Below are positions 21,923 to 21,995 of a DNA stretch of 40,915 nt, piece by piece (the stretch's first letter is position 1; each line of letters starts with the position of its first letter). Both the position numbers and the translations under genes were made by a program. The notes under the pieces were generated by a model. The model was given only the letters and a program-made list of their open reading frames with translations. It had not been told where the DNA came from and did no database searches. The DNA comes from Candidatus Woesearchaeota archaeon (GTDB lineage: Archaea; Nanobdellota; Nanobdellia; SCGC-AAA011-G17; JACPNG01), in NCBI GenBank assembly GCA_016185605.1, contig JACPNG010000010.1, positions 1 through 40,915 on the forward strand, given 5' to 3'.

Positions 21923-21944
21923 TTCAAGAGTTTTTTCTAAACTT
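21923..21944 (-). other. 22-nt BHB intron at acceptor-stem position 3/4 of tRNA-Ile
   Basis: GGG | AAGTTTAGAAAAAACTCTTGAA | CCTG; central CAAG/CTTG, inner hairpin AGTTT-AGAAA-AAACT, bulges GGA and AAC; removal turns two acceptor mismatches into a perfect 7-bp stem. Confidence 0.87.
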
Positions 21945-21995
21945 CCCTTGCTAGTACTTAGCCTATCTTAATCATTTATAACTTATTTATAAGAG

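Follow-up and report, generated by a model that had tools for sequence, protein, structure and literature searches.

A putative leader-dependent intron in the acceptor stem of tRNA-Ile(GAU), downstream of a homing endonuclease gene in a Woesearchaeota archaeon

The canonical introns of archaeal tRNAs, at position 37/38, form a bulge-helix-bulge (BHB) motif with a 4-bp central helix (helix H) and two 3-nt bulges, and are substrates of the splicing endonuclease EndA, which cuts after the second base of each bulge; for summaries of how the BHB is recognised, see PMC4090602 and PMC12397907. Introns at position 3/4 are known from certain tRNAs of the Thermoproteales (Sugahara et al. 2008), and are described in PMC4090602 as 'an extreme case'. 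To deal with introns near tRNA ends, tRNAscan-SE 2.0 adds 60 nt of flanking sequence (PMC8450103). The candidate intron described here lies at position 3/4 of a tRNA-Ile(GAU) gene in a 40,915-nt stretch of Woesearchaeota DNA (hereafter the window). It shares the 4-bp helix H and the two 3-nt bulges of the canonical introns, and would be cut by EndA at the same points. In canonical introns the helices pair exon with exon, whereas at this locus the 5' leader takes part in the central and outer helices instead.

The tRNA-Ile(GAU) gene (21815..21947, minus strand, as are all features of the window given below) was delimited by a match to Rfam RF00005 and by our own re-reading of the sequence, and contains two introns. 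Exon 1 consists of GGG alone (21947-21945, placed by the re-reading) and is followed by the acceptor-stem intron at position 3/4, which is 22 nt long (21944-21923). Exon 2 (21922-21886) begins with CCTG at 21922; a second, 35-nt intron (21885-21851) occupies the canonical 37/38 position, where it is evident in the sequence and skipped in the RF00005 alignment; and exon 3 (21850-21815) carries the 3' acceptor strand CAGGCCC (21822-21816). Read without splicing, the gene scores 40.5 bits against RF00005, and two pairs of its acceptor stem are broken (A2.C71 and A3.C70); these are the two mismatches that an earlier note on this DNA had reported. ARAGORN misses the gene as it stands and calls the spliced form as tRNA-Ile(gat). 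With GGG joined to CCTG, the 5' strand reads GGGCCTG opposite CAGGCCC and the acceptor stem rises from 5/7 to 7/7 pairs, as that note had anticipated with the same intron boundaries. Excision of the 22 nt yields a consistent cloverleaf, as expected of an EndA-type BHB intron, and lowers the predicted free energy of the mature tRNA from -20.7 to -29.6 kcal/mol.

Both intron boundaries fall within a strict BHB. Helix H is CAAG/CTTG (four Watson-Crick pairs), the bulges are GG|A and AA|C (3 nt each) and the inner helix is AGTTT/AAACT; the 'textbook' description in the earlier note was thus accurate, and the combination of a 4-bp central helix with two 3-nt bulges is that of an EndA substrate. One strand of helix H is made of CAA (21950-21948) and G1 (21947), so that three of its four bases come from the leader. 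The leader strand of the BHB as a whole spans 21947..21963, with an outer part, GGCTAAGTACTAG (21963-21951), preceding the CAA. This outer part faces CTGTAGCTTAGCC in exon 2 (21909..21921), which covers acceptor positions 5-7, positions 8-9 and the D arm and would be paired with the leader before splicing. The outer helix consists of leader TAG against C5T6G7, a 2x2 internal loop, and then GGCTAAGT against GCTTAGCC; its distal portion, GGCTAAG/CTTAGCC, contains seven perfect pairs. The outer strand had already been assigned to the 5' leader, correctly, with pairing at 8 of 10 positions; this slightly understated the pairing, since an additional helical block brings GGCTAAGTACTAG and CTGTAGCTTAGCC to 11 of 13. 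Since helix H takes CAA from the leader and the upstream outer strand is leader throughout, we agree with the earlier suggestion of leader dependence: the 22-nt intron would be removable only while the upstream leader is attached. If RNase P cut before G1 first, the substrate for splicing would be lost, and splicing before RNase P processing is therefore probably the natural order.

This arrangement is rarely reproduced in shuffled sequence. When the 100 nt upstream were shuffled 200,000 times with dinucleotide composition preserved, only one shuffle combined the GGG repair with four pairs in helix H, at least five in the inner helix and at least three in the outer helix, and none of the 200,000 gave 11/13 outer pairs. 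In a separate run, repair plus BHB occurred once in 20,000 shuffles, and not at all when outer pairing was added. The predicted stability of the 55-nt BHB segment is no more than moderate (z -1.9), and a competing hairpin, CAAGGG/CTCTTG, is 0.7 kcal/mol more stable than the BHB at 37°C (ViennaRNA).

We consider it about 90% probable, judging from the sequence, that the only tRNA-Ile(GAU) gene found carries a genuine BHB intron of the EndA type at position 3/4, removed by leader-dependent splicing that is followed by RNase P processing. In a transcript beginning upstream of GGG, the leader would pair with tRNA positions 5-17 and CAAG/CTTG would set up the BHB; EndA would cleave at GG|A and AA|C, and an RtcB-type ligase would link GGG to CCTG. 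The leader would then release the D arm, allowing the cloverleaf to form, after which RNase P would take off the leader.

The genome (857 kb, estimated to be 91.9% complete) contains 27 tRNAs above the cut-off, and the GAU anticodon is present in none of the 26 others. A model of the mature tRNA-Ile run against this genome gave no match better than the gene with the 3/4 intron, which is thus the only tRNA-Ile(GAU) found there. The other tRNAs have regular acceptor stems (7/7 pairs in 25 of 25 checked). Given the incomplete assembly and the low tRNA count, the gene might be a pseudogene whose 5' end was wrecked by an endonuclease insertion, with a functional copy in the approximately 8% missing from the assembly. 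A strict BHB together with acceptor repair is, however, very unlikely to arise by chance, the remainder of the tRNA is intact, and the same layout is found at four other tRNAs of other genomes (see below), which makes a pseudogene highly improbable.

The machinery for the proposed splicing is encoded by the host. EndA is present as a single gene (~185 aa); among solved structures its best alignments are to the catalytic chains 3iey_A and 1a79_A, which we take to be the EndA chains of N. equitans and M. jannaschii, respectively; the other chain of entry 3iey is named NEQ261. The M. jannaschii enzyme is of the narrow, homotetrameric type, and a strict BHB such as this one should suit even that type. 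RtcB ligase is encoded at one locus, so that both enzymes expected of a host of EndA-type BHB introns are in place, and an archaeal RNase P RNA is detected at 148 bits. Editing of the 5' end, as carried out by Thg1-like enzymes in some protist mitochondria, would offer a different route: the mature tRNA would begin with GAA, and positions 1-3 would be removed and rebuilt as GGG opposite the 3' strand. The mismatches do fall exactly within positions 1-3. Against this, no Thg1 family gene was found in the 91.9% complete genome at a threshold that detects Thg1 in Methanosarcina, and editing leaves the BHB, the correctly placed GGG and the TATA box distance unexplained; we regard it as very improbable.

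Two TATA-like boxes lie upstream of the tRNA (21973..21993). The stronger, CTTATAAATA (21993-21984, score 9.2), begins 43 nt before GGG, and the weaker, GTTATAAATG (21982-21973, score 5.0), begins 32 nt before it. For most tRNAs of this genome such a box begins at a distance of 30-34 nt upstream of the mature 5' terminus, implying little or no leader. Measured from GAA, the two distances would be 68 and 57 nt, and both boxes fit GGG better than GAA as the 5' end of tRNA-Ile. The stronger box predicts a leader of approximately 11 nt, while the full outer helix needs 16 nt; the weaker box predicts a start at GGG itself, with loss of the leader and the BHB. Leader length as predicted from the promoter is the main uncertainty over the splicing mechanism. 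A leaderless transcript starting at GGG has the modal 32-nt distance of GTTATAAATG in its favour, but the score of this box is far below that of the upstream one, and loss of the leader would prevent both helix H and the outer helix. We know of no maturation route for a leaderless version, and we give this alternative very little weight, similar to that of 5'-end editing. A split, trans-spliced tRNA was rejected since the exons are 22 nt apart within one gene, as was an endonuclease-encoding intron, since by its coordinates the endonuclease ORF lies 5' of exon 1 and outside the 22-nt intron.

The ORF in question encodes a free-standing LAGLIDADG_3 homing endonuclease of 270 aa (21996..22808; PF14528, E 7.9e-9), on the same strand as tRNA-Ile and ending in a stop codon ~50 nt upstream of GGG. 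The motifs ADL(L/M)TDG and SFTCEG are conserved, with invariant acidic residues, among seven sequences (that of the window and six homologues with 38-47% identity); the PF14528 domain and the two acidic catalytic motifs support its assignment as a probable LAGLIDADG homing endonuclease. One homologue of the endonuclease is labelled Micrarchaeia. On its other side lies tRNA-Asn(GUU) (22844..22966), whose sequence was read as having a 13-nt intron at 37/38 and what seem to be two more insertions; it is missed by ARAGORN and, with a match of 23.5 bits, falls under the Rfam cut-off. The endonuclease gene thus sits between tRNA-Asn and tRNA-Ile, directly upstream of the latter. Elsewhere in the window, positions 34051-36837 encode a class I aminoacyl-tRNA synthetase, an isoleucyl-tRNA synthetase by sequence.

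Four family members (G005, G008, G009 and G011) have a bare tRNA-Asn/tRNA-Ile tandem, the two genes being ~3-15 nt apart with no endonuclease; tRNA-Ile is intronless in three of these and lacks the 3/4 intron in the fourth (G008). Across 29 tRNA-Ile loci of the order, picked by high score, tRNA-Asn lies just upstream in about half and the 3/4 intron is present in none. The tRNA-Asn(GUU) gene of the window is the upstream partner of this ancestral tandem, and the bare tandem without a 3/4 intron in relatives indicates that the intron is new in the lineage, as is the endonuclease gene. The most likely history is insertion: the endonuclease gene would have moved in between the two tRNA genes of the tandem, and from then on tRNA-Ile would have had a TATA box and a leader to itself, along with the 3/4 intron.

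Searches for the same intron elsewhere returned little. No close relative sharing it was found among 12 genomes of the family or 104 of the order, and a sequence search of the 12 family genomes with the leader and intron revealed no counterpart outside the tRNA body. A pattern for the tRNA-Ile body with a base other than G at positions 2-3 matched, in the 104 genomes of the order, only the window and, by chance, one protein gene. A similar pattern run on 85,488 genomes gave two tRNAs, one confirmed by Rfam, with C at positions 2-3 in their own acceptors. Among other tRNAs, tRNA-Ile of relatives G008 and G011 (L040, L041) apparently has the anticodon UAU with an intron, in place of the usual modified CAU. 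In the genome studied here, a class II tRNA on C17 (10397-10480, L017) has the anticodon loop CTAAGGA, hence anticodon AAG; A34 is unusual for an archaeon.

We compiled 36 loci of the free-standing endonuclease family, comprising homologue matches with ORFs of ~160-300 aa, the window, and one more gene of the same genome. At 28 of these a tRNA is found no more than 400 nt away, compared to 0 of 22 control loci (Fisher p ~1e-9); the controls were intein-type matches, other endonucleases, EndA, RNase P, RtcB and similar, excluding L127 (the same gene as a case) and L082 (picked by tRNA pattern). At 17 of the 28, a co-directional tRNA overlaps the endonuclease stop codon or begins at most 50 nt past it. 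The adjacency of endonuclease and tRNA genes is solid.

BHB introns within the first nine tRNA positions were found by a scan in eight endonuclease-adjacent tRNAs: at 3/4 in tRNA-Ile of the window, tRNA-Phe (L103) and tRNA-Pro (L110); at 4/5 in tRNA-Phe (L108, L113); and at 8/9, between the acceptor stem and the D arm, at L105, L109 and L143. A ninth case (L107, position 8/9), seen by eye, has a weak inner helix. Introns of this kind therefore occur in 9 of the 28 adjacent tRNAs versus 0 of 54 in a small and partly score-chosen background (p 2e-5), and most endonuclease-adjacent tRNAs have intact 5' ends. The 3/4 and 4/5 introns of the relatives belong to four independent tRNAs (three Phe and one Pro), all with 4/4 pairs in helix H. 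Including the window, leader pairing in the five cases is 8, 7, 7, 8 and 9 of 10 positions, with base pairs that differ at most positions, while 50 control placements on other tRNAs usually gave 4-5 and reached 7 in three. Leader pairing above the usual control value in five tRNAs indicates that the leader-dependent layout is recurrent and not a peculiarity of one sequence.

That the endonuclease caused these introns is a further step, which we propose only tentatively. The family may home to tRNA 5' ends, leaving behind its gene, a new promoter with a leader, a duplicate of the bases that begin the tRNA, and a short BHB intron; this intron would restore the tRNA by leader-dependent splicing and at the same time destroy the endonuclease target, such that acceptor-stem introns would be homing scars or immunity marks. 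The leaders look like inverted copies of the 5' portion of the tRNA, a likeness that the BHB itself would require. On balance we think this scenario rather unlikely to hold.

Other LAGLIDADG genes were seen near RNA genes. A second endonuclease with the same domain lies directly upstream of tRNA-Thr(UGU) in the same genome (C8:71941-72600, L096/L020), and that tRNA has a noncanonical intron near position 26. On C5 (~38684-41935, L090), a LAGLIDADG_3 gene is located inside a stretch matching archaeal 23S rRNA, with three further LAGLIDADG_3 matches within 4 kb. In G018, the 3' part of a tRNA-Leu is found downstream of an endonuclease gene (L114/L150) and no 5' part was found nearby upstream; it is either a split tRNA or a fragment.

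If tRNA-Ile is spliced as read here, an essential tRNA would need its own leader for splicing, which would dictate whether EndA or RNase P acts first, and tRNA gene finders would misplace its 5' end. The recurrence of the endonuclease together with 5'-end introns would make homing into tRNA genes a concrete candidate origin of noncanonical archaeal tRNA introns.

Split and permuted archaeal tRNAs (PMC3218864) likewise draw a BHB strand from outside the mature tRNA; unlike these, tRNA-Ile here is one contiguous gene that would be spliced in cis. The 3/4 introns of the Thermoproteales share the acceptor position and belong to an archaeal lineage other than this small-genome, DPANN-like host. As 3/4 introns were already known there, the tRNA-Ile intron adds a distant lineage to the range of a known kind; family members lack it, which favours a recent and independent origin. 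Free-standing homing endonucleases are carried in the tRNA regions of phage T4, where they likewise lie among tRNA genes. The endonucleases described here, unlike those of T4, are of the LAGLIDADG type, reside in archaeal chromosomes and directly adjoin tRNA genes on their 5' side; several of these tRNAs have BHB introns. In the literature searched we found no account of tRNA-linked homing endonucleases in these archaea, and what is new here is the context, that is, the connection of 5'-end tRNA introns to homing endonucleases.
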